Assembly: GCF_030296575.1 (NCBI RefSeq)
Contig: NZ_AP027729.1
Span: forward strand, 744,001 to 808,000
DNA from: Paraoerskovia sediminicola
GTDB lineage: Bacteria > Actinomycetota > Actinomycetes > Actinomycetales > Cellulomonadaceae
Reading direction: 5' to 3'
Length of the DNA: 64,000 bases
The notes below the pieces were generated by a model. The model was given only the letters and a program-made list of their open reading frames with translations, was not told the DNA's origin and made no database searches. Shown piece by piece: positions 18,179-38,995 of this stretch. A program made the translations under genes and the position numbers. The stretch's first letter is position 1. Each line of letters starts with the position of its first letter.

Positions 18179-19278
<1,100 letters not shown>

Positions 19279-19282
<4 letters not shown>

Positions 19283-20277
19283 GTGCGGTCCTCCTTGGCC
19301 TCGTAGACGACCGGCGTGAAGCCGATCCGCGGGCGGATCCCGCGGCGGCGCAGCGAGCGGGCGTGCAGGCCCGTGCTCCGCAGCCTCGGGTTGACGAACT
19401 CGTCGATGCCGAAGTTGATGAGGGTCAGCGCCATGCCGAGCAGGGCGATGCACAGACCCGCCGGGACGAACCACCACCACGCTCCACGCTGGAGCGCGAG
19501 GTTGTTCTGCGCCCAGAAGAGGATCGTGCCCCAGTTCCAGTCGCTGACCGGGGTGATGCCGATGAACGACAGGGTGACCTGCGAGAGCACCGCGAAGGTG
19601 ACCGTGCCGACGAACCCTGCCGCGATGATCGCGGTGAGGTTCGGGAGCACCTCGACGAGGATGAGGCGCCAGCTGCGCTCCCCGTTCGCCCGCGCGGCCT
19701 CGACGAAGTCGCGTCGCCTCAGCGACAGCGTCTGGGCGCGCAGCACGCGTGCGCCCCAGGCCCATCCGGTCGCGGCGATCACGAGTGCGACGGTGACCCC
19801 GCCCGCGGTCGGCAGCTGGCCGGCGATGATGATGATCAGCGGGAGCTGCGGGATCACGAGGAAGACGTTCGACAGCGCCGAGAGCGTCTCGTCGCCGATC
19901 CCGCCGATGAAGCCCGCGGTCACACCGACCACGACCCCGACGATGGTCGCCCCGATCCCGGCGATGAACCCGACGACCATGACGCCCCGGGTGCCGACGA
20001 TGATCTGCGACAGGATGTCGCGCCCCAGGTGGTCGGTGCCGAACCAGTGGGTCGACGACGGCGCCTGCAGCAGGTCCTTCGACACGTCGCCGGCGCCGTA
20101 GGGAGCGATCCACGGCCCGATGATCGCGAGGATCGCGAAGAAGGCGAGGATGCCGAGGCCGGTCATCGCCTTGGAGTTGCGGAGGAAGAGGAACTTCTGC
20201 GGCTTGTTCTTCTTCTTCGGCGCGGTGCTGCTCACGACCTCGGCGGCCGGAGTCTCGAGCGTGGTGTCCGTGGCCAT
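19279..20277 (-). CDS. Opp/Dpp-type ABC importer permease (DppC-like)
   Basis: This is a 332-residue inner-membrane permease with six predicted helices and an N-terminal cytoplasmic tail. The EAA-type coupling loop is RRDFVEAARANGER. The sequence GTDHLGRDILSQIIVGTR is the hallmark of DppC/OppC subunits. It pairs with the DppB-like permease encoded one base upstream. The start ATG follows GGAGGGCTGAC. No frameshift is present. Confidence 0.93.
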
Positions 20278-20278
20278 G

Positions 20279-21259
20279 TCAGCCCTCCTGCCGGGTACGG
20301 GGATCGAGCGCCGCGTAGACGAAGTCCGCGATGATGTTCGCGCCCAGGACCGACAGCGTGATCACGAGGAAGCACCCCTGCATCAACGGGTAGTCCTGCG
20401 ACGACACGGCCTGGAACAGCGTGAATCCGATGCCCTGGTAGGAGAAGACCATCTCCATGATCAGGGTGCCGCCCACGATGAACCCGAGCGACAGCGCGAA
20501 GCTCGACACCTGCGGAAGGATCGCGTTGCGCGCCGCGTAGCCGAAGACGACCGTGCGCTCCTTGAGGCCCTTGGCCTGCGCCACCGTGACGTAGTCCTCG
20601 GACGAGACGGTGACCATCATGTTGCGCATCCCGAGGATCCAGCCCGCGATCGAGGACAGGATCACCGTGAGCGCCGGCAGGGTCCCGTAGTAGATCACCG
20701 AGCGGATGAACTCCCACGAGAACTCCGGCACCAGGCCGCGGTCGTAGCTGCCGCTGGACGGGAACCAGCCGAGCCAGACCGCGAACACGGCGATCGCGAT
20801 GAGACCGAGCCAGAAGTACGGGACCGCCGAGAAGAACGTGGTCACCGGGAGCAGGCCGTCGGCCCACGTCCCGCGACGCCAGCCGATGCCCATCCCGAGG
20901 AGGGTGCCGATCGTGAAGGCGATGATCGTCGAGACCCCGACGAGGCCGATCGTCCACGGGAGCGTCTGGCGGACGATGTCGATCACGGGCGTCGGGAAGA
21001 ACGTGAAGGACAGCCCGAGGTCGCCCTGGAACAGCAGCTTCCAGTACTCCACGTACTGCTGCCAGATGTTCATGTCCTTGTCGAGCCCGAAGAGGATGCG
21101 GATCGAGTTGGCGGCGTTCGAGTCGATCCGGCCCTGCATGCGCCCGATCAGGGCGATCACGGGGTCGCCGGGCATCATGCGCGGGATCAGGAAGTTGATG
21201 GTCACGGCCGCCCAGGCCGTGAGCGCGTAGAACGCGATGCGTCGCGCGAAGAACTTCAT
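20279..21259 (-). CDS. Opp/Dpp-type ABC importer permease (DppB-like)
   Basis: This is a 326-residue permease beginning with a membrane helix and the [10 protein letters not shown] segment typical of DppB/OppB. The coupling motif is [17 protein letters not shown], and the C-terminal helices include [16 protein letters not shown]. It forms the heterodimeric channel with the next gene product. The ATG at 21259 overlaps the stop of the OppF-like ATPase gene (ATGA), consistent with translational coupling. Confidence 0.93.
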
Positions 21260-22401
21260 CGGGCCGCCTCCTCGGAGTCGTGCGCAGCCGCGGACGCTGC
21301 GACCGTGGGCCGCTCGCCGTACGCGTCGAGGACGGAGCCGAGCTCGGGACGGTCAGGACGGTCGGAGTATCCCCAGCAGGCCGCCTTGCGGCCCTCGCCC
21401 ACGTCCATGAGCGGCGGGAGCTCGGTGCGGCACAGGTCGGTGGCGAACGGGCACCGGGGGTTGAAGCGGCATCCCGGGGGCGGGGTCACGAGGCTCGGCG
21501 CCTCGCCGCGCGCTCCGCGCGCCCGCGCCTCCATGTCGTCCGGGTCCGGCGCGGAGCCGATGAGCAGCTGCGTGTACGGGTGCTTCGGGTCCTGCGTGAC
21601 GGACTCGCTGTCGCCGCTCTCGACGACCCGGCCGGCGTACATCACGAGCGTCTTGTCGGCGAAGTACCGCGCGGATGCGATGTCGTGCGTGATGTAGAGG
21701 ATCGCGATGCCCAGACGGTCCCGGAGGTCGCGCAGGAGGTTGAGGATCCCGAGCCGGATCGACACGTCGAGCATCGAGATCGGCTCGTCGGCCAGCAGGA
21801 CGTCAGGGTCCGCGGCGAGCGCGCGTGCGATCGCGACGCGCTGCCGCTGCCCGCCCGAGAGCTCGTGGGGGTACTTGTCGACGTAGCGGTCGACGGGCGT
21901 GAGGTGCACGCGGTCGAGCAGCTCGTCGAGCGCCGCCTCCATCTCGGCGCCCTTGAGGTTGCCGCGGTGGATCCGGATGCTGCGGGTCAGGTGGTAGCGC
22001 ACCGTGTGCACCGGGTTCAGCGACCCGAAGGGGTCCTGGAAGATCATCTGCACGCGCTTGACGTACCGACGGAAGCTCTTGCGGCCGCGGGCGGTCGCGT
22101 CCTCGCCGTCGAGCAGGATCTGCCCGGCCGTCGTCGGCATGAGCTGCGCCAGGAGCCTCGCGATCGTGGACTTGCCCGATCCGGACTCACCGACGAGCGC
22201 GACCACGCGACCGGCGTAGAGCTCGAGGTCCACGTCGTCGACGGCGTGGACGACCTTGTCGGACCGGAAGCCGCGCACGGGGAAGTGCTTGCGCATCTTC
22301 ACGGCGCGCAGCACGGGCCGGGCGTCGCCCTCCGTGTCGTGGGGATCGCCGGCGCGACGCGAGGCCGCGTCGGTGGCTGTGGGCGGGGTGGGCATTGACA
22401 T
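21256..22401 (-). CDS. oligopeptide/oligosaccharide ABC importer ATPase (OppF type)
   Basis: This is the second ATPase of the importer, about 381 residues. It has Walker [10 protein letters not shown], signature LSGGQRQR, Walker [14 protein letters not shown] and switch YITHD. The C-terminal Opp region is [18 protein letters not shown]. Three adjacent starts are possible (GTG 22404, ATG 22401, ATG 22395) after CTCAGGTG. The gene is separated from the upstream binding-protein gene by a 197-base gap with a strong hairpin. That should leave the binding protein in excess over the membrane complex, a common arrangement. Confidence 0.92.
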
Positions 22402-22512
22402 CACCTGAGATCTGACGGTCCGAGCCCGCTCGTGCGAGCGGGTCGGCGCGCGTGCGTCGCGCGGGGCAGGGGGTCGTGGCAGGTGCTCGGCGGGCGGGCC
22501 GTCGAGCTGCCG

Positions 22513-22601: not shown

Positions 22602-24302
22602 TCAGCCCTCGTCGTTGACCTGCAGCTTCATGACGATCTGCGCGGCCTGCGAACCGGTCGGCTGCGGCTGGTTGTACGGGTCGTCCTCCGACGGCCAGCC
22701 GGTGTAGTTCAGCGACGAGTACTGCGCGGTCGCGGGGCGCGACCAGATGGCGAGCGCCGGGACCTCGTCGACGAAGACCTGCTGGACGGTGTTGAGAGCC
22801 TCGGTGCGCTCCGCGTCGTCCGTGGTCGACGCGTAGGTCTCGAGGGCCTTCGTGACGTCGTCGTTCTGGAAACGACCGAAGTTCCAGTTCGCCGGCTCGC
22901 CGAGGGGCTGGTACTGCGCGCCGTCCATGATGTTCGCGTACATGTCCCACGGGGTCGCGCCACCGTCGGTCCAGTGCAGCGTGGCGTCGAAGTTGCCGAG
23001 CGGGATCGTGTCGGCGAACCAGCCGTCCTGGTTCGTCGGGTTGACCGTCGCCTCGACACCGAGGGTCGCGGCAGCGTTCTTGATGAGGTCGAGCGCGGTC
23101 AGGTAGTCGTTCCACCCGGCCGGGTTGATGAGCTCGAAGGTGACGTCCTCACCGTCCGGGTCGACGAGCTTGTCGCCCACGCCCGTGTAGCCGGCGTCCT
23201 CGAGGATCTTCTTGGCCCCGTCGAGGTCCACCGCGAACTCGTCGGTGATGTCGGGGTTGAGGAAGTCCTGACCCGCGGGCATCGGCATGCCGGTGACGCT
23301 GGTGAGCGCCGGGTTGACGCCCGACGTCGCGATGTCGACGAGCTCCTGGCGGTCGACCACCATGTTGAGCGCCTTGCGGAAGGCCAGGTCGTCGAACGGC
23401 TTCTCCTCGTTGTTGAGGAACAGCGCGTCGATGCCCAGGCCGGCGGCGGCGTACTGGTGGTAGTGGTCGGGGTCCTGCGCGATGTAGACGTTCTCGTAGT
23501 CCGCGATGAACGTCCAGCCCCACTGTGCCTCACCGGTGGTGAGGGCGGTCGTGAGGGCGTTGTTGTCCGTGTAGGACGAGTAGCGGATCTCGGGGACCGC
23601 GGGCGTGCCGCCCCAGTAGTTCTCGTTGGCGACGACGGTCGCGGCCTGCGGCGTCCACGACTTGAGCGTCATGGGGCCGGTACCGATCGGGTCGGTGTTC
23701 TCGAAGGTCGTCGGGTCGTCGACGTCCTTCCAGATGTGCTCGGGGACGACCAGGAGGTCGGCGAGCTTGGCCTGGTTGACGAACTGCGGGGCCTCGAAGG
23801 AGACGGTGACCGAGTCGCCGTCGACCGTGACGTCCTTGTAGGGCAGCGCGGCGGTGTTGAGCGCCTCGTTGTCCTTGCGCAGGTTGATCGAGAACGCGAT
23901 GTCGTCGACCGTCATGTCCTCACCGTCGGACCACTGCACACCGGCGTGCGGCGTGATGACGGCCTCGGTGAAGTCCTCGTTCCACTCGATGCTGTCGGCG
24001 AGCCACGGGAGCGGGTCGTCCGAGGGCTTGGCGTCGTTGAGCATCATCAGCGGCTCGTAGATCACGAACGCGTAGCCGAGCGAGAGGGCGGACGAACCGG
24101 TCGCGAACGGGCTCTGGTTCTCGGTCTGCGTGCCGTTCGGCATGCCGACGGTCAGGACCTCGCCCTGCGCGGTCTCGCCGGACGAGCTGGAGCTCTCCTC
24201 GGTCGTCGAACCTTCGTCGGTGTCGCCCGAGGTGCAGCCTGCGGCCACGAGGGCCAGGGATGCGGCGCCGACAGCGATCGCACTGAGCTTACGGATTCTC
24301 AC
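22602..24302 (-). CDS. ABC importer substrate-binding lipoprotein (SBP_bac_5 family)
   Basis: This is a 566-residue extracellular binding protein. The signal ends in a LVAAGC lipobox with Cys at residue 23, followed by an acidic, Ser-rich linker. The mature part has the family hallmarks NLRKDNEALNTAALPYKDV and LAFRKALNMVVDRQELV, and a long aromatic-rich C-terminal lobe. The family binds peptides but also oligosaccharides. The gene sits directly after the GH3 glycosidase and before the membrane components, so beta-linked oligosaccharides are my favoured ligand (inference). The GTG at 24302 has a strong AAGGAGGCACTT ribosome-binding site. Confidence 0.92.
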   Translation of the reverse strand: MRIRKLSAIAVGAASLALVAAGCTSGDTDEGSTTEESSSSSGETAQGEVLTVGMPNGTQTENQSPFATGSSALSLGYAFVIYEPLMMLNDAKPSDDPLPWLADSIEWNEDFTEAVITPHAGVQWSDGEDMTVDDIAFSINLRKDNEALNTAALPYKDVTVDGDSVTVSFEAPQFVNQAKLADLLVVPEHIWKDVDDPTTFENTDPIGTGPMTLKSWTPQAATVVANENYWGGTPAVPEIRYSSYTDNNALTTALTTGEAQWGWTFIADYENVYIAQDPDHYHQYAAAGLGIDALFLNNEEKPFDDLAFRKALNMVVDRQELVDIATSGVNPALTSVTGMPMPAGQDFLNPDITDEFAVDLDGAKKILEDAGYTGVGDKLVDPDGEDVTFELINPAGWNDYLTALDLIKNAAATLGVEATVNPTNQDGWFADTIPLGNFDATLHWTDGGATPWDMYANIMDGAQYQPLGEPANWNFGRFQNDDVTKALETYASTTDDAERTEALNTVQQVFVDEVPALAIWSRPATAQYSSLNYTGWPSEDDPYNQPQPTGSQAAQIVMKLQVNDEG

Positions 24303-24351: not shown

Positions 24352-26916
24352 CTACTTCGGGGTGGGGGTGTTGCTGTCTTCCTGCGGGTCGAGCGGCACC
24401 ACGGCGTCGAGCCGCAGGTCGCCCACCGAACGGCCTACGCGCAGCGCGTAGTCGCCCGGGGTGTGGCCCACCGGTGCGTACCGGTGTCCCAGATCTGGAA
24501 CGCGCGCCGCGGGATGCGGACGTGCGCGGTGACCGTCTCGCCGGCAGCGGCGTCGACGGTGGTGAATCCCCCAGCCAGCGGCTCGGGCGGTCGTGGGGGC
24601 GCCGGGCGCCTCGAGGTAGGCCTGGACGACCTCGCGCCCGGACCGGGCCCCGGAGTTCGTCACGGTCACCGACACCGTGACCGCGTCCTCGTCGGTGGCC
24701 GTCGTGAGCGAGTCGTAGGACCAGGTCGTCCAGCCGAGCCCGTGGCCGAAGGGCGCCGCAGGGTCGAGCCCGTCCCGGACCCAGGCGCGGTAGCCGACGT
24801 GGACGCCCTCCGTGTAGTCGACGATGCCCTTGACCGGGATCGCGTCGGGGACCGGGACGTCGGCAGCCCTCGCCGGCAGCGTCCACGGGAGCCGACCCGA
24901 CGGCTCGGTGGAACCTCCGAGGACGTCCGCGACGGCGCCGCCGCCCTCCTGCCCCGGCAGCCAGCCCCACACGACCGTGGCCGCGTCGTCCAGCCAGGGC
25001 AGGAGCACGGGTGCCCCGGCGTTCACGACGACGACGGTCCTCGGGTTGGCGTCGAGCACGCGCCTCACGAGCTCGTCCTGGTTTCCGGGGAGCGCGAGCG
25101 ACGGACGGTCGTAGCCCTCGGACTCGACCTCCTCGGTCGTACCGACGACGACGACGGCCACGTCGGCCGCGGCGGCCGCGGCGACGGCCTCGGCGAGCTC
25201 GTCCTCGGCCGACGGGCCAGGGAGCGCGTGCACCAGCTCGGCCCGGGTGAACACGCCGTAGCCGACGGTGTGGACGACCTGCAGGTCCGCCTCGAGCCGC
25301 ACCACCCGGGGCGCGCCCTCGGCGACCTCGATCTCGACGGTGCTCGCGAGCGGGTGGTTGTGGCCGGAGCTGAGGACGATGCCGACGTCGACGACCGTGT
25401 CACCGGTCGACACCCGGACCCCGTCGACCCGGACGTCGTGGACGCCGACGGTCCCGACGCCGAGGCTGTGCACCCCGGGCTCGCTGAGCAGCACGTCCGC
25501 GGAGAGCCGGAGCACGACCGCGTCGGTGCGGATCTCGTGCCGCCAACCGTCCCAGGGCTGGGCCGCGAGGTCGTCGAGCACGGTCCCGTCCTCGGCGAGC
25601 AGCTCGATCCGCACACCGCTCCCGCCGGACACGGGGTCGGTGCACGCGGCCGCGACGTCGAGCAGCGGCGGGTTCTTGCGTGGACGGGCTCCGGCGTGCA
25701 GCGTCAGCTCGGACCCCGGGAGCGCGGCGCGCAGCTCCTGAGCGAGGTCCGTGACGTGGTCGGGGACCACGAACGACGAACCACCGCCCTGGAGGAAGAG
25801 ATCGACGGCGCCGGGCCCGATCAGCGCGACCCGGCCCGTCGATCCCTCGCCGACCCCCTGCGTCGGCGAGTCCGTGAGCGGGAGGAGCCCCGCGTCGTCC
25901 TTCAGCACGACCATCGAGCGGGCCGTGAGCTCGCGCAGGTAGGCCGCCGACGCCCGCGTGGTCCCGAACTCGGGGAACTCGCCGTCGGTCGGCTCGCCGG
26001 GTGCAGAACCGTCGAGGCGCAGCGCCCCCACGCGGACGGCGAGCCGCAGCAGCCGCTCGACCTTGTCGTCGAGCTCGTGCTCGGCGACGTCACCCGCGAG
26101 GACCGCCGCGTGCAGGCCTTCGCCCCAGACGCCGTCCGGCCCAGGCATCTGCAGGTCCAGACCGCCGCGGACCGCCCCGACGACCGACTTCGTCGCGACC
26201 CAGTCGCTGACGACGACGCCGTCGAAACCCCACTCACCCTTGAGGACCCCGGTCGTCAGGGGTCGGTGCTCGAGGGCGGGGCCGGCGAACCGGCCGTCGT
26301 CGACCCCGCTGTAGGCGCCCATGACGCTCCACGCGTCGGCGTCCTTGACGAGGCGCTCGAACGGGGCGAGGTAGACCTCGCGCAGCGTGCGCTCGTCGAC
26401 GCGCGCCACGTAGCGCGTGCGGTCGGTCTCGGAGTCGTTGGCGACGTAGTGCTTGACGCACATCCCGACGCCGCGCTCCTGCGCCGCCCGGACCAGCGCG
26501 ACGGCGATCTCCGCCGTCAGCACCGGGTCCTCGGAGAAGCACTCGAAGTGGCGGCCGCCGACCGGCGTGCGCTGGATGTTGACCTGCGGGGCGAGCACCA
26601 TGTCCACCCCGTGCCGGCGCGCCTCGGCGGCGAAGAGCTCGCCGGCCCGGCGCGTCAGGTCGAGGTCCCAGGTCGCCGCGAGGGCGCTGGGCGCGGGGAA
26701 CATCGCCGAGGTCTTGACCCCGGAGTCCTCGGTGCCGCGGACGCCCACGGGGCCGTCCGACATGATCATCGGGCGCAGGCCGATGCGCGGCACGCCCCGC
26801 GTGGCCCACATGCCGGCGCCGACGACGAGGCCGACCTTCTCCTCGAGGGTCAGCTCGCCGACGAGCGTCTCCAGCTCCAGACCTCTGTCGGTCGGGGCCG
26901 TGGTCTCCAGTGACAC
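24352..26916 (-). CDS. GH3 family beta-glucosidase, three compensating single-base losses
   Basis: This is an intracellular (no signal peptide) glycoside hydrolase of 854 residues as read. The N-terminal barrel contains KHYVANDSETDR and the nucleophile Asp in VVVSDWVA near residue 237. An insert of PA14-like type follows (around residues 430-560), then the alpha/beta sandwich (VVVVGTTEEVESEGYDR) and a C-terminal fibronectin III-like domain. Between about 24482 and 24600 the protein reads as nonsense. One base missing at each of 24481-24482, 24568-24572 and 24585-24587 restores PSRWLGGFTTVDAAAGETV and FQIWDTGYAPVGH. Three losses cancel, so the frame still looks open. The GTG at 26916 leads the importer operon under the TetR operators. 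Confidence 0.9.
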   Translation of the reverse strand: MSLETTAPTDRGLELETLVGELTLEEKVGLVVGAGMWATRGVPRIGLRPMIMSDGPVGVRGTEDSGVKTSAMFPAPSALAATWDLDLTRRAGELFAAEARRHGVDMVLAPQVNIQRTPVGGRHFECFSEDPVLTAEIAVALVRAAQERGVGMCVKHYVANDSETDRTRYVARVDERTLREVYLAPFERLVKDADAWSVMGAYSGVDDGRFAGPALEHRPLTTGVLKGEWGFDGVVVSDWVATKSVVGAVRGGLDLQMPGPDGVWGEGLHAAVLAGDVAEHELDDKVERLLRLAVRVGALRLDGSAPGEPTDGEFPEFGTTRASAAYLRELTARSMVVLKDDAGLLPLTDSPTQGVGEGSTGRVALIGPGAVDLFLQGGGSSFVVPDHVTDLAQELRAALPGSELTLHAGARPRKNPPLLDVAAACTDPVSGGSGVRIELLAEDGTVLDDLAAQPWDGWRHEIRTDAVVLRLSADVLLSEPGVHSLGVGTVGVHDVRVDGVRVSTGDTVVDVGIVLSSGHNHPLASTVEIEVAEGAPRVVRLEADLQVVHTVGYGVFTRAELVHALPGPSAEDELAEAVAAAAAADVAVVVVGTTEEVESEGYDRPSLALPGNQDELVRRVLDANPRTVVVVNAGAPVLLPWLDDAATVVWGWLPGQEGGGAVADVLGGSTEPSGRLPWTLPARAADVPVPDAIPVKGIVDYTEGVHVGYRAWVRDGLDPAAPFGHGLGWTTWSYDSLTTATDEDAVTVSVTVTNSGARSGREVVQAYLEAPGAPTTARAAGWGIHHRRRRCRRDGHRARPHPAARVPDLGHRYAPVGHTPGDYALRVGRSVGDLRLDAVVPLDPQEDSNTPTPK

Positions 26917-26983: not shown

Positions 26984-27003
26984 CTTACTGACTTGTCAGT
27001 AAG
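26984..27003. promoter_or_regulatory. palindromic operator 1 for the adjacent TetR regulator
   Basis: CTTACTGAC-TT-GTCAGTAAG has perfect nine-base arms. It lies 68 bases upstream of the GH3 start and 73 bases upstream of the TetR start. The size and AT-richness in a GC-rich context fit a TetR-family operator. A possible GH3-operon -10 (TAGATG, complement of 27016-27021) would place the site just after the transcription start as a roadblock. Confidence 0.8.
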
Positions 27004-27028
27004 TGACCGTGGACACATCTAAACACAC

Positions 27029-27046
27029 TTACTGACGGGTTAGTAA
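27029..27046. promoter_or_regulatory. palindromic operator 2 for the adjacent TetR regulator
   Basis: TTACTGAC-GG-GTTAGTAA matches operator 1 with one mismatch between its arms. Its centre is 44 bases from the centre of operator 1, about four helical turns. It overlaps the presumed -35 region of the TetR gene (TATGGT at 27064-27069 would be the -10). Binding here should therefore repress the regulator itself. Confidence 0.78.
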
Positions 27047-27075
27047 CTCCCGAGAGGTCACAGTATGGTTGCGAC

Positions 27076-27960
27076 ATGAGCGAAGTGATCGTCACGGGCG
27101 ACGAGGCCCGATCCGGAGCCCGGACCAGCGGCACGGCACGTGCCCGCAAGCCGCGCAAGGCCACCGCGGAGCGCCGTGAGGAGATCCTGCGGGCCGCGAT
27201 GCGCACGTTCGGCTCGAAGGGCTACCACAACGGTTCGCTCTCCGAGGTGGCCGAGCAGGTCGGCATCACGCACGCGGGCGTGCTCCACCACTTCGGCTCC
27301 AAGGACCAGCTGCTCATCGCCGTGCTGGAGTTCCGCGACCGCGAGGACGTCGAGCACCTCGAGGGCCAGCACATCCCGGGCGGCATCGAGCTGTTCCGTC
27401 ACCTCGTGCGCACCGCCGCGATGAACGCCAACCGCCGCGGCATCGTCCAGACCTACACCGTCATCACCGCGGAGTCGGTCACCGACGACCACCCCGCCGG
27501 CCCGTGGGTGACCCGTCGCTTCGCCGGCCTGCGCGACGACCTCGCCAACGCGTTCCGGGAGATCCTGCGCGGGTCCGCCGACGCACCGGAGGACCCCTCC
27601 CGCCCGGCGCAGTCCGACGCGGCCCTCGACGTCGCCGCCAGCACGATCATCGGCGTGATGGACGGGCTGCAGACGCAGTGGCTCCTCGACCCGGAGGCCG
27701 TCGACCTCGCGGGCACCTCGGGATTCGCCATCGAGGCGATCGTCAACGCGGTCCTCGAAGGGGACGACCGGGCCCGCCCGCTCGAGCCGCTGGGCCCCCG
27801 CTCATGCCCCCCGGCAGCCACACCGCCCCGCCCGCTGCCGAGTCCTGACCGACCGGCACGCCCGCACGCGTGCCGTGCCGCGCCCGTCCGCCCGTCCACA
27901 GGTGACGCACAGGTGCAGCACAGGCGCACCGGAGCCCGCCGCGCCAGACTGACGGCGTGA
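27076..27960 (+). CDS. TetR-family transcriptional regulator of the GH3/importer operon
   Basis: This is a DNA-binding repressor with an N-terminal TetR helix-turn-helix (RREEILRAAMRTFGSKGYHNGSL, then VAEQVGITHAGVLHHFGSK) at about residues 33-80. The ligand-binding helical domain follows. It is divergent from the GH3 operon, with two matching palindromes in the gap, so it very likely represses that operon and itself. As read it has 294 residues, but the last 60 are Pro/Arg-rich and run into the next gene. One extra C in the run 27795-27799 would give LGPPLMPPGSHTAPPAAES and a stop at 27848. TATGGT six bases before the ATG suggests a leaderless message. Confidence 0.88.
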   Translation: MSEVIVTGDEARSGARTSGTARARKPRKATAERREEILRAAMRTFGSKGYHNGSLSEVAEQVGITHAGVLHHFGSKDQLLIAVLEFRDREDVEHLEGQHIPGGIELFRHLVRTAAMNANRRGIVQTYTVITAESVTDDHPAGPWVTRRFAGLRDDLANAFREILRGSADAPEDPSRPAQSDAALDVAASTIIGVMDGLQTQWLLDPEAVDLAGTSGFAIEAIVNAVLEGDDRARPLEPLGPRSCPPAATPPRPLPSPDRPARPHACRAAPVRPSTGDAQVQHRRTGARRARLTA

Positions 27961-35754: not shown

Positions 35755-36653
35755 CCCTTCAGCCCGCTCGTCGCGATGCCCTCGATGAAGTAGCGCTGAC
35801 CTGCGAGGAAGATGATCGCGATCGGCAGCACCGAGATCACCGACCCGGTCATGATGAGCGCGTAGTCGGCGTTGTACTGGCCGATGAACGTCTTGAGCCC
35901 GAGCTGCAGCGTCCAGAGGTCGGGGCTGCGCAGGTAGATCAGGGGCCCGAGGTAGTCGTTCCACGTGTTCGTGAAGGTGATGAGCGTGAGGCTCGCGATC
36001 GCGGGGACGGACAGCGGGATCATGATGCGCCGCCAGATCCCGTACTCGGAGAGCCCGTCGATGCGTGCCGCCTCGCTGAGCTCCTCCGGCACCGTCTCGA
36101 AGAACTGCTTCATGAGGAACACGCCGAACGCCCCGAACGTCTGCAGCGCGAGGATCGCCCACAGGGTGTTCGACAGGCCGATCTTCGACAGCATGACGAA
36201 CTGCGGGATCATGTACGCCTGCCACGGGACGGCGATCGTCGCCACGTAGATCAGGAACAGCGCGTCGCGGCCGGCGAAGCGGACCTTCGAGAACCCGTAC
36301 GCCGCGAAGCTGCCCGTGAGCACCTGGAGGAACGTGACGCTCACGGACAGGATCAGCGTGTTCTTGATCCACGTCGTCATGTCCGACTTCTGCCAGATCT
36401 CGACGTAGTTGTTCCAGACGAAGGGGTCGGGGATCCACTGGATCGGGACCGTGAACACGTCGTTGTTGGTCTTCAACGACGAGATGACCATCCAGACGAA
36501 CGGGAGCAGGACCGCGGCGGCCGCGAGGGCCAGCACGACGTAGAGCACGCCGCGGCCTGCGCGCTTCGCCGGGGTGGGCCGACGCGGGCCGCGCACGACC
36601 GGCCCGCCCTCGATCTGCGACACCGGGAGGGTCGCTGCGGTGGTGGCGCTCAT
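35751..36653 (-). CDS. sugar ABC importer permease (CUT1, MalG-like)
   Basis: This is a 300-residue permease with six helices. The coupling loop is EELSEAARIDGLSEYGIWRRIMIPLSVPAI, the EAA motif of MalG-type subunits. The C-terminal GQRYFIEGIATSGLKG is also typical (consensus GAVKG or GLKG). It pairs with the MalF-like permease upstream, and both interface with an MsiK-type shared ATPase, since no ATPase gene is present in the cluster. It is coupled to its neighbours by ATGA overlaps on both sides. Confidence 0.92.
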   Translation of the reverse strand: MSATTAATLPVSQIEGGPVVRGPRRPTPAKRAGRGVLYVVLALAAAAVLLPFVWMVISSLKTNNDVFTVPIQWIPDPFVWNNYVEIWQKSDMTTWIKNTLILSVSVTFLQVLTGSFAAYGFSKVRFAGRDALFLIYVATIAVPWQAYMIPQFVMLSKIGLSNTLWAILALQTFGAFGVFLMKQFFETVPEELSEAARIDGLSEYGIWRRIMIPLSVPAIASLTLITFTNTWNDYLGPLIYLRSPDLWTLQLGLKTFIGQYNADYALIMTGSVISVLPIAIIFLAGQRYFIEGIATSGLKG

Positions 36654-37578
36654 CGGGACTGCCTCCTGTTCACGGCGAACTGCACGATGGTGACGGCGAT
36701 GCAGATGAAGAACAGCGCGACGGACACCGCTGACGCATAGCCGAACTGGTTCTCGACGAACCCCTTCTCGTAGATGTACTGCGAGAGCACGAGCGTCGAC
36801 TGGCCGGGGCCGCCGTCCGTCATCAGCAGGATCAGGTCGAAGACCTTGAGGCTGCCGATGGTGAGGATCACCGTGATGAAGAACGTGGTCGGCCGCAGGG
36901 ACGGGAGCGTGATGCTCCAGAACCGCTGCCACGCGTTGGCGCCGTCCATGCGTCCGGCCTCGTAGAGCTCGCGCGGGATCGTCTGGAGGCCCGCGAGGAA
37001 GAGGAGCATGTAGTAGCCCATCTCCCGCCACACGCCGACGATGATCACCGCGGGCATCGACCACGCGGCGGACGTCGTCCACCCCGGGGGTTGTCGACGC
37101 CGAAGAACCGCAGGAGCTGGTTGATCGGGCCGAAGTCGGGGCTGAACAGCATGTTCCACACGACGGCGATGGCGACCATCGACGTGATGTAGGGGAAGAA
37201 GGCCGCGGTCCGGAAGAACGCGACGCCCTTGAGCTTCTGGTTGAGGAGCAGCGCGAGCCCGAGGGACGCCATGAGGGTCAGCGGGATGTGCAGGCCGGAG
37301 TAGTACAGGGTGTTGAGCAGCGCCCTGCGGAAGCTGTTGTCCTCGAAGAGCCTCGTGAAGTTGTCGAGACCGACCCACGGGGCCGCGCCGAACGCGTTCC
37401 AGCTCGTGAACGACAGGTAGAAGAGGGCGATCACGGGGATCAGGGTGAGCGTCCCGAAGCCGAGGAAGTTCGGCAGGATGAACGTCCACCCGATGAAGTT
37501 GTTGCGTCGCCGCAGCCGGGTTCCCGGCTTGCTCCGACGGTGTGCGGTCGAGGGTGTCTCGACGGACGTCGTCGCCAT
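36650..37578 (-). CDS. sugar ABC importer permease (CUT1, MalF-like), one apparent frameshift
   Basis: This is a permease of about 309 residues beginning with a cytoplasmic tail and IGWTFILPNFLGFGTLTLIPVIALFYLSF. The coupling motif is PRELYEAGRMDGANAWQRFWSITLPSLRPT. The two halves lie in different frames. One missing base in the plus-strand G run 37086-37090 restores VDNPPGWTTSAAWSMPAV. The ATG at 37578 follows CAGGAGCGCCCC. A 112-base gap with a hairpin separates it from the binding-protein gene upstream. Confidence 0.9.
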
Positions 37579-37609
37579 GGGGCGCTCCTGTCGATCAGTG
37601 GATGGGGCG

Positions 37610-37671
37610 GGGTCCGGCGCGACGGCGACCGCTCGGCGCGCTCGGCGCGCTCGGCGCGTCACGCCGGACCC
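37610..37671. repeat. stem enclosing a 9-base triple repeat between binding protein and permease genes
   Basis: Ten-base arms GGGTCCGGCG and CGCCGGACCC enclose a loop holding three exact head-to-tail copies of CTCGGCGCG (37632-37658). It lies just after the binding-protein stop on the minus strand, where a partial terminator or RNA-protecting stem is often found in such operons. Confidence 0.6.
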
Positions 37672-37690
37672 AGGTGCAGCGGAGGCTGCG

Positions 37691-38995
37691 TCAGCCGATG
37701 TCGGCCTCGCTCTTGGCGCGGTCCTGCGCCTCGGCGATGGCGTCGTCGATCGACGAGGTCCCGGACATGATCGCGGAGTGCATGTCCCCGAGGATCGCCT
37801 GCACCGTCGCGACGTTCGGCGCGACCGGGTTCTCCGGAGCCGTCTCGTGGGTGGCGAACGTGAACTTCGACAGGTCGTCGCCCGGCACGCCGTCGACGGC
37901 GAAGTACGCGTCGACCACCGAGTCGGCCTGGTACGCCGGGGTGATGCCGATCTCCGCGAGCGCGGCGGCCGCGTCCGCCCCACCGATGAACGAGAGGAAC
38001 TTCTTCGCGGCGTCGGCCTTCGACTCGTCGATCGCCGGGTTGATCCCGACACCGGTCGGGTCACCGAAGGTCACGGGGTTGTCGGTCGTGCTCGCGTCGA
38101 GCTGCGGCGCCGGGGCGATGCCCCACGCGAACTCGTCCGCGTCGCCGCTCTCCACCTGGGCGAGGAGCGTGGCCACGTACCAGCTGCCCATGAGCATCAT
38201 GGCGGTCTTCTGGGTACCGAACTGGGCCTGGTAGCTGAGGCTGTTGGTGGTGGCGGTGCCGTAGTCGACCTGGGCGCCGGAGTCCTGGAGGTCGACGGCC
38301 TTCTCGTAGTACGGCTTGAAGTACGCGTAGTCGCCGCTCAGGATGTCGCCGTCAGGGCTCTGCGAGTTCGCGAACCCCTGCAGGGTGGACTGCCACGTGT
38401 GCTCGTAGGTGCCGTCCACGCCGTCGCCGAGGGCCCCGTCGAGCTCCTTCGCCGTCGCGACGTAGTCGTCCCAGGTCCACGAGCCGTCCGGGGCGTCGAC
38501 GCCGGCCTCGTCGAACAGGTCCTGGTTGTAGTAGAGGTACCAGGAGTCCTGGCGGTACGGGACCGCGTACGTGACGCCGTCCACCTCGTACGCCTCGACG
38601 CCCTTGGTGTCGTCGTCGAACCCGCCCGCGACGTCGGAGACGTCCATGAGCTGGCCGCCGCCCTGGTACGTGGTGAACCCCGCGAGGGTCTTCTGCGCGT
38701 ACATGTCGGGTGCGCTGCCTGCGGCGAGGTCGGCAGTCATCTGCGTGTCGTAGTCGTCGGCGCTGTACTCCTGGAGCTCGACGGTGATGTCGGGCTCCGC
38801 CTCGTGGAACGCGTCGGCGAGCACCTGGAACTCGGGCGTGGTCGACAGGCTCCACCCCGCGAGCGTGAGCTCGACCGGGCCGTCGGCCGCGGCGTCGCCG
38901 TCCCCGCCGCCCGAGTCCCCGTCGCCGCTGCAGCCGGCGAGCACGAGCGATGCCGCTGCTGCCAGGCCGACCGCCGTGGTCAGTGAGCGCTTCAT
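37691..38995 (-). CDS. sugar ABC importer substrate-binding lipoprotein (CUT1)
   Basis: This is a 434-residue extracellular solute-binding protein (SBP_bac_1 type). The signal ends in LVLAGCSG, giving a lipid-anchored Cys at residue 22. The mature N-terminus is Gly/Asp-rich, followed by VELTLAGWS, DLAAGSAPDMYAQ, GVTYAVPYRQDSWYLYYNQDLFDEAGVDAP and a long C-terminal lobe. Aromatic residues suited to sugar stacking are common. The ATG at 38995 (20 codons inside the longest frame) has an AAAGGAGATATC ribosome-binding site. The ligand is probably an oligosaccharide released from a uronic acid-containing polymer, judging by the lyase-like neighbour. Confidence 0.92.
   Translation of the reverse strand: MKRSLTTAVGLAAAASLVLAGCSGDGDSGGGDGDAAADGPVELTLAGWSLSTTPEFQVLADAFHEAEPDITVELQEYSADDYDTQMTADLAAGSAPDMYAQKTLAGFTTYQGGGQLMDVSDVAGGFDDDTKGVEAYEVDGVTYAVPYRQDSWYLYYNQDLFDEAGVDAPDGSWTWDDYVATAKELDGALGDGVDGTYEHTWQSTLQGFANSQSPDGDILSGDYAYFKPYYEKAVDLQDSGAQVDYGTATTNSLSYQAQFGTQKTAMMLMGSWYVATLLAQVESGDADEFAWGIAPAPQLDASTTDNPVTFGDPTGVGINPAIDESKADAAKKFLSFIGGADAAAALAEIGITPAYQADSVVDAYFAVDGVPGDDLSKFTFATHETAPENPVAPNVATVQAILGDMHSAIMSGTSSIDDAIAEAQDRAKSEADIG

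Follow-up and report, generated by a model that had tools for sequence, protein, structure and literature searches.

What controls a beta-glucosidase operon whose importer genes carry the family signatures of peptide transport, and what does that importer carry? The question is raised by an intergenic region of Paraoerskovia sediminicola, which we studied as part of a 64,000-nucleotide stretch of DNA, referred to here as the window (assembly GCF_030296575.1, contig NZ_AP027729.1, positions 744,001 to 808,000; coordinates are those of the window unless a locus is named). Two 18-base palindromes, O1 and O2 in Table 1, lie inside the 159 bases that separate the start of a GH3 gene (26916) from the start of a divergent TetR gene (27076). 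Their centres are 44 bases apart, and O2 differs from O1 at one arm base and at both spacer bases. The preliminary description of this DNA had spoken of two near-identical palindromes at this distance, separating a TetR gene from a GH3 gene and five Opp-type importer genes. The term near-identical is fair and the Pfam families bear out the gene content, with one small correction: the first palindrome begins at 26985, one base after the start given there (26984).

Table 1. Genes, operators and candidate promoter elements of the tetR/gh3-opp region, in window coordinates.
Feature	Position	Strand	Basis and remarks
OppD-like ATPase	18179..19282	−	Pfam ABC_tran+oligo_HPY; start is an ATG inside a longer ORF
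OppC-like permease	19279..20277	−	Pfam BPD_transp_1+OppC_N
OppB-like permease	20279..21259	−	Pfam BPD_transp_1
OppF-like ATPase	21256..22404	−	Pfam ABC_tran+oligo_HPY
Family-5 solute-binding lipoprotein (SBP), oligosaccharide-binder type	22602..24302	−	Pfam SBP_bac_5; sequence and fold matches
GH3 beta-glucosidase gene (gh3)	24352..26916	−	Pfam Glyco_hydro_3; NF052330
Operator O1	26985..27002	.	TTACTGACTTGTCAGTAA; perfect (0 mismatches); gh3-proximal, extra copy
Candidate gh3 −10 box	27018..27023	−	TTTAGA on the bottom strand; suggested by the conserved stretch; weak
Operator O2	27029..27046	.	TTACTGACGGGTTAGTAA; 1 mismatch; tetR-proximal
Candidate −10 box of a leaderless tetR promoter	27064..27069	+	TATGGT; 17 bp after O2, 6 bp before the ATG
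TetR-family repressor gene, BgrT-type (tetR)	27076..27960	+	Pfam TetR_N; tree

No match to the motif at up to three mismatches occurred in 100 dinucleotide shuffles of the window, and elsewhere in the genome assembly (3.5 Mb in 2 contigs, completeness 87.6%) there is one further match within that limit, a three-mismatch one far away. Apart from this match, the genome search that had been proposed at the outset confines the palindromes to the tetR/gh3 spot. Together with the count over 1.54 Mb given below, these searches rule out a chance palindrome. Rfam at gathering scores returned no RNA element between 16900 and 28000.

Conservation of the motif beside orthologous TetR/GH3 pairs had been named as one of the points on which the operator reading could fail, and it holds in every pair we could define. 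Matches to the TetR protein at E 1e-20 or better, distant paralogues included, are present in 119 of 150 genomes of the same family. From a search with an alignment of 20 relatives we took the best 80 of 451 confirmed loci, making 81 with the window; they include Cellulomonas, Cellulosimicrobium, Oerskovia, Promicromonospora, Isoptericola, Luteimicrobium, Sediminihabitans, Sanguibacter and Paraoerskovia, and also Demequina, Leifsonia, one Pseudonocardia and some metagenome-assembled genomes. We define a TetR/GH3 divergon as a locus in which the nearest recognised gene across from tetR is a divergent GH3 gene within 700 bases. By this definition 56 of the 81 loci are divergons, and TTACTnACnnGTnAGTAA is found between the two genes at no more than one mismatch in all 56. 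The SBP gene takes the place of GH3 in 11 loci, six with the site at up to one mismatch and five with it only at two mismatches; among the remaining 14, which have no recognised GH3 or SBP neighbour, five have the site and nine do not, and these nine are all of the motif-less loci. Across 1,539,289 bases, every one of the 76 sites at up to one mismatch lies about 460 bases or less from tetR, and a site was present in none of 4050 resampled upstream stretches. The 56 tetR-proximal sites are invariant at 13 of 18 positions and have A at position 3 in 51 cases; variation is seen at positions 6 and 13 and in both spacer bases. In a smaller first set, for which we allowed up to four mismatches to the strict pattern, the site was in the locus for 25 of 30 TetR genes (window included) and missing from five.

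Could the palindromes instead serve another regulator, for example a paralogous TetR, with the targets of the adjacent TetR lying elsewhere? An order-wide search at up to one mismatch finds the motif in 26 of 396 genomes, and of the 25 motif loci besides the window's own, 13 have a TetR homologue no further than 1.5 kb away and the other 12 have none in that range, so the motif alone is not diagnostic. Five of these 12, loci L188–L192, all from another family of the order (f19), carry identical TTACTGACnnGTCAGTAA palindromes with GH3 and SBP matches absent over 14–16 kb; in L188 the palindrome is flanked by an FAD-dependent oxidoreductase gene and by a gene for which no Pfam family exceeds its cut-off. 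Perhaps another regulator shares the same site there; a further f19 locus, L055, is a TetR/GH3 divergon with the site. For the divergons themselves, however, we regard a foreign regulator as very unlikely. The palindromes accompany the adjacent gene pair without exception, the motif is missing only from loci in which neither GH3 nor SBP is recognised as a neighbour (though five other such loci have it), and the paralogous TetR of the same genome has no such site nearby. The palindromes behave as putative operators of the adjacent TetR, with support about as good as sequence can give.

The twin arrangement of the window turns out to be the exception: 47 of the 56 divergons have a single site and nine have two. 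The doubled loci form two groups. The first consists of the window, L059 and L060, with spacings of 44, 46 and 44, the latter two being the closest of the 80 named relatives by TetR identity. The second consists of six Cellulomonas loci (L076, L082, L086, L094, L102 and L104, with spacings of 67, 43, 43, 56, 55 and 56 respectively), in which the stretch between the sites resembles, by eye, a repeat of the tetR promoter; for this reason the doubling has probably arisen separately. In the window it is O2 whose surroundings resemble those of the site in single-site relatives. The prevalence of single sites would fit a model in which O2 alone works and O1 is a duplicate that arose by chance or has no function, but the doubling is kept at 44–46 bp in the two closest named relatives and occurs in another layout in the six Cellulomonas loci, and we consider an idle O1 improbable.

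The intergenic regions also suggest where the promoters lie. A TATNNT-type box is found 13–17 bases after the tetR-proximal operator in 51 of the 56, and in 50 of those 51 the ATG follows 6–8 bases after the box, a spacing that would correspond to a leaderless transcript. On the gh3 side, the operator in relatives is flanked by a conserved stretch of the AACCACAC type, with [ACG]CACA within the adjoining 10 bases in 43 of 56 loci, and this stretch may hold the gh3 −10. Because a scan with the sigma-70 consensus found no promoter, the promoters are read from conservation only. Placed in this way, O2 would cover both of them and O1 would lie just downstream of the gh3 start.

The target genes are conserved in the same manner. 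All five Opp genes are present, in the arrangement TetR/GH3-SBP-OppF-B-C-D, in 50 of the 56 divergons; five of the six incomplete loci hit the end of the available DNA, and the sixth (L124) is without an SBP match. The order is different in some of the loci where the SBP gene adjoins tetR: there a GH3 of lower similarity (30–39% identical) stands at the far end (for example L112, L113, L119, L132, L134 and L138). Accidental neighbours are ruled out by the conserved gene order. The GH3 protein reaches 1394.4 bits against NF052330, the beta-D-glucosidase equivalog of the Celf0468 type (cut-off 1300); of the operon GH3s of four relatives, those of L078, L059 and L096 pass and that of L066 falls just under, at 1283.3. 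By eye, no signal peptide is seen in GH3.

In this assembly there are three breaks in the gh3 reading frame close to its 3′ end: to obtain a C-terminal domain like that of relatives (24400–24620, minus strand), one must pass through all three frames and return to the first, which looks like small assembly indels rather than biology. The corresponding frame is intact in L059 and in a Cellulomonas fimi strain. The TetR frame (27790–27960, plus strand) lacks the stop of its relatives and is some 50 residues longer, reaching into the beginning of the response regulator gene that follows; possibly this is another indel. Elsewhere in the window a CUT1-type permease gene (36650–38064, minus strand) is apparently split between two frames, judging by eye from the ORF list.

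What the importer carries is best judged from its binding protein. By Pfam the system has the composition of an Opp-type importer, with a family-5 SBP, two OppBC permeases and two OppDF ATPases, and the permeases and ATPases match the Opp/Dpp/Nik families, as would be expected if it were a true peptide or metal-chelate transporter merely co-regulated with GH3. The best solved matches of the SBP are, however, Vibrio chitin-oligosaccharide binders and, from Thermotoga, TM1223, TM1226 and proteins that bind cellobiose (E 4e-54 to 4e-28), whereas the peptide binders AppA (2e-17) and DppA (7e-12) match more weakly. Its predicted structure (mean pLDDT 88.9) gives the same order in Foldseek, where ranks 1–17 are all saccharide binders and the first peptide binder appears at rank 18. 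The Thermotoga and Vibrio binders are its closest solved relatives, at 21–25% identity to the model; tmCBP, the Thermotoga cellobiose/beta-glucan binder (PMC3850815), is an oligosaccharide-binding protein of family 5, like the SBP here, and the mannoside binders TM1223 and TM1226 and the Vibrio proteins are family-5 SBPs too. None of the five transporter genes reached an NCBIfam cut-off among the matches listed, which for the two ATPases are the best 25 of 189 and the best 25 of 187. A second SBP match was not found in the 3.5-Mb assembly at E 1e-10. Sequence and predicted fold place the SBP in the saccharide-binding subgroup; we think a peptide or nickel importer very unlikely, and a sugar is very probably what this peptide-type system takes up.

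The regulator belongs to the TetR family (TetR_N 54.9 bits, cut-off 24), and its closest described counterparts appear to be the BgrT regulators. These were predicted in 2016 (Khoroshkin et al., PMC4746261) as TetR-family regulators, mainly of Bifidobacterium but also of other Actinobacteria, that lie beside beta-glucoside or beta-galactoside genes and have 18–22 nt palindromes as sites; their specificities are called predicted in that account. Our tree has 64 rows, namely the 20 rows of the TetR alignment (window included) and 44 others, the latter being the 49 TetR_N matches of genomes G000, G349 and G472 minus the window's own and four; the 31 TetR_N matches of G044 lie outside its scope. 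A clade of 33 rows stands apart from the other 31 with support 98/97, and it consists of the 20 alignment rows, a second TetR of the same genome and 12 TetRs of the two Bifidobacterium-like genomes G349 and G472. The tree carries warnings for long branches (those of rows outside the clade) and joins, and for unusual residue composition in seven rows; five of the seven belong to the 12 bifidobacterial rows of the 33-row clade. We take family f4 of the order to be Bifidobacterium-like from a 16S primer that matches 14 of 16 f4 entries at up to one mismatch and none of 3 others. In 24 of 33 f4 genomes the TetR alignment finds matches at 1e-8, some only in the HTH part.

The regulator thus shares one branch with bifidobacterial regulators beside glycoside genes, the comparison being with Bifidobacterium-like genomes. 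It also lies beside beta-glucoside/galactoside hydrolase and transporter genes, and an 18-nt palindrome stands upstream in all 56 divergons. Because the clade includes Bifidobacterium-like TetRs that resemble published BgrT, control of a glycoside operon by a TetR belongs to a described kind. All six of the bifidobacterial TetR loci L149–L154 have a divergent GH3 gene, and three have a related palindrome at up to three mismatches, for example TTACTAACCGGTCGGTAA; operator sequences were compared with Bifidobacterium-like genomes only. The preliminary description had seen a departure from known systems in a TetR and a peptide-type importer serving a glycoside. The SBP makes a sugar importer very probable, and BgrT as set out in PMC4746261 removes the departure as far as the TetR is concerned: the window has in common with it the TetR family, hydrolase and transporter neighbours, a local regulon and a palindrome in the 18–22 nt range. 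The two differ in their transporters, which are MFS proteins and the ABC set bglUVW in section 11 of that paper and a five-gene Opp-type importer with a family-5 SBP here.

A paralogous locus of the same genome (L185:8740–12888, at about 920.7–924.9 kb of contig C1) combines a BgrT-clade TetR gene with a divergent MFS sugar transporter gene and then GH3, and so resembles the published BgrT set. No copy of the window operator was found at this locus, and an inverted-repeat search of its promoter gave no operator-like arm pair; the promoter holds TACCGACCAGGTGGTA, a near-palindrome of the TACC/GGTA type that is similar by eye to the bifidobacterial type. In the Bifidobacterium-like genome G349, one TetR (L173:16115–16807), with 42% identity to that of the window, falls among the cellulomonad rows of the tree and has TTACTGACTCATCAGCAA near its gene; a transfer between lineages is possible.

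The TetR model (mean pLDDT 88.7) matches many TetR folds, among them FadR, TM1030, TtgR and MtrR, and does not narrow the ligand. TetR pockets usually take greasy ligands, and the inducer may therefore not be a plain sugar. In an alternative reading, regulator and operon are as described here and the substrates are plant heterosides, the TetR sensing the glycoside or its freed aglycone, not cellobiose-type oligosaccharides. TetR folds such as TtgR bind aromatics, and TtgR with quercetin is at rank 21 for the TetR model. Among solved structures the GH3 matches 7pjj best (547 bits); PMC9426481 gives this as BcpE2, which it presents as promiscuous, with activity on the plant heterosides it tested, and scores as negative on cellobiose. 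The GH3 nevertheless passes a different equivalog, the beta-D-glucosidase of the Celf0468 type, and the SBP resembles oligosaccharide binders; we regard heterosides as the rather less likely substrates.

From the observed sites, genes, conservation, family placement and SBP resemblance we infer how TetR binding, the sign of the regulation, the promoters, the ligand and the transported sugar may fit together, and we are fairly confident in the resulting model as a whole: a BgrT-type TetR represses the gh3-SBP-oppFBCD operon and its own gene, and a beta-glucoside relieves this repression. Without inducer, a TetR dimer (or a pair of dimers) would bind O2, over the back-to-back promoters, and O1, and would block RNA polymerase in both directions. 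A beta-glucoside that enters the cell, or its product, would bind the C-terminal domain of TetR, which would then leave the DNA. The derepressed cell would make the Opp-type importer, by which a beta-linked oligosaccharide or glucoside would be taken in whole, and the cytoplasmic GH3 beta-glucosidase, by which glucose would be split off. The GusR/UidR system of E. coli, as described in PMC9881133, also has a TetR-type repressor of a glycoside operon, operators O1 and O2, and relief by the glycoside, as proposed here; being a glucuronide system it differs in glycoside, hydrolase and transporter. UidR chain 6ayi matches the window's TetR in the HTH part only, at E 7e-5.

More tentatively, and with less than even confidence, we suggest that throughout the clade the BgrT-type TetR of the divergon senses a plant glucoside or its aglycone, that the Opp-type importer takes glucosides or beta-oligoglucans whole, and that one operator serving two promoters has been doubled in two ways to tighten the switch. 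A TetR/Opp divergon of this plant-glucoside form is not described in the literature searched. Among the matches listed, an open-literature search found no paper describing the tetR/gh3-opp locus; a search on TetR studies in Cellulomonas gave none by title among the matches listed, although the BgrT paper is one of them, and with the literal motif the matches listed concern other subjects by title. The Bradyrhizobium TetR treated in PMC5017801 concerns another gene cluster.

The kind of system is known; what is new is the pairing of a BgrT-type regulator with a probable sugar importer of the Opp type, the sequence of the operator in these genera, and the putative arrangement of the promoters. 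A defined operator, a likely regulator and a target operon recur together across Cellulomonas-like actinobacteria and some neighbours, and the TetR-type beta-glucoside switch is extended from MFS and ABC partners to Opp-type importers, whose family names suggest peptide or nickel transport where the evidence points to sugar. Once its ligand is established, the repressor with its 18-bp site could serve as a beta-glucoside sensor.

The cellobiose system of Streptomyces relies on CebR, a LacI-family regulator with the 14-bp box TGGGAGCGCTCCCA, and on a CUT1 importer. It shares with the window the actinobacterial control of beta-glucoside uptake and of a beta-glucosidase, and differs from it in the components: TetR and Opp-type genes here, LacI and CUT1 there. 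The exact CebR box was not found in the 3.5-Mb assembly, and at up to two mismatches the pattern gave 23 matches against 67 for the backward control pattern, so CebR sites in general are indistinguishable from noise. Elsewhere in the same genome (L244:4945–5002; C1:2502444–2502501), a gene for a GH9/CBM2 cellulase has at its start two palindromes that resemble the CebR box, with one and two mismatches, at a spacing of 44 bp. The CelD_N domain of that gene falls into two frames, which again points to assembly indels.
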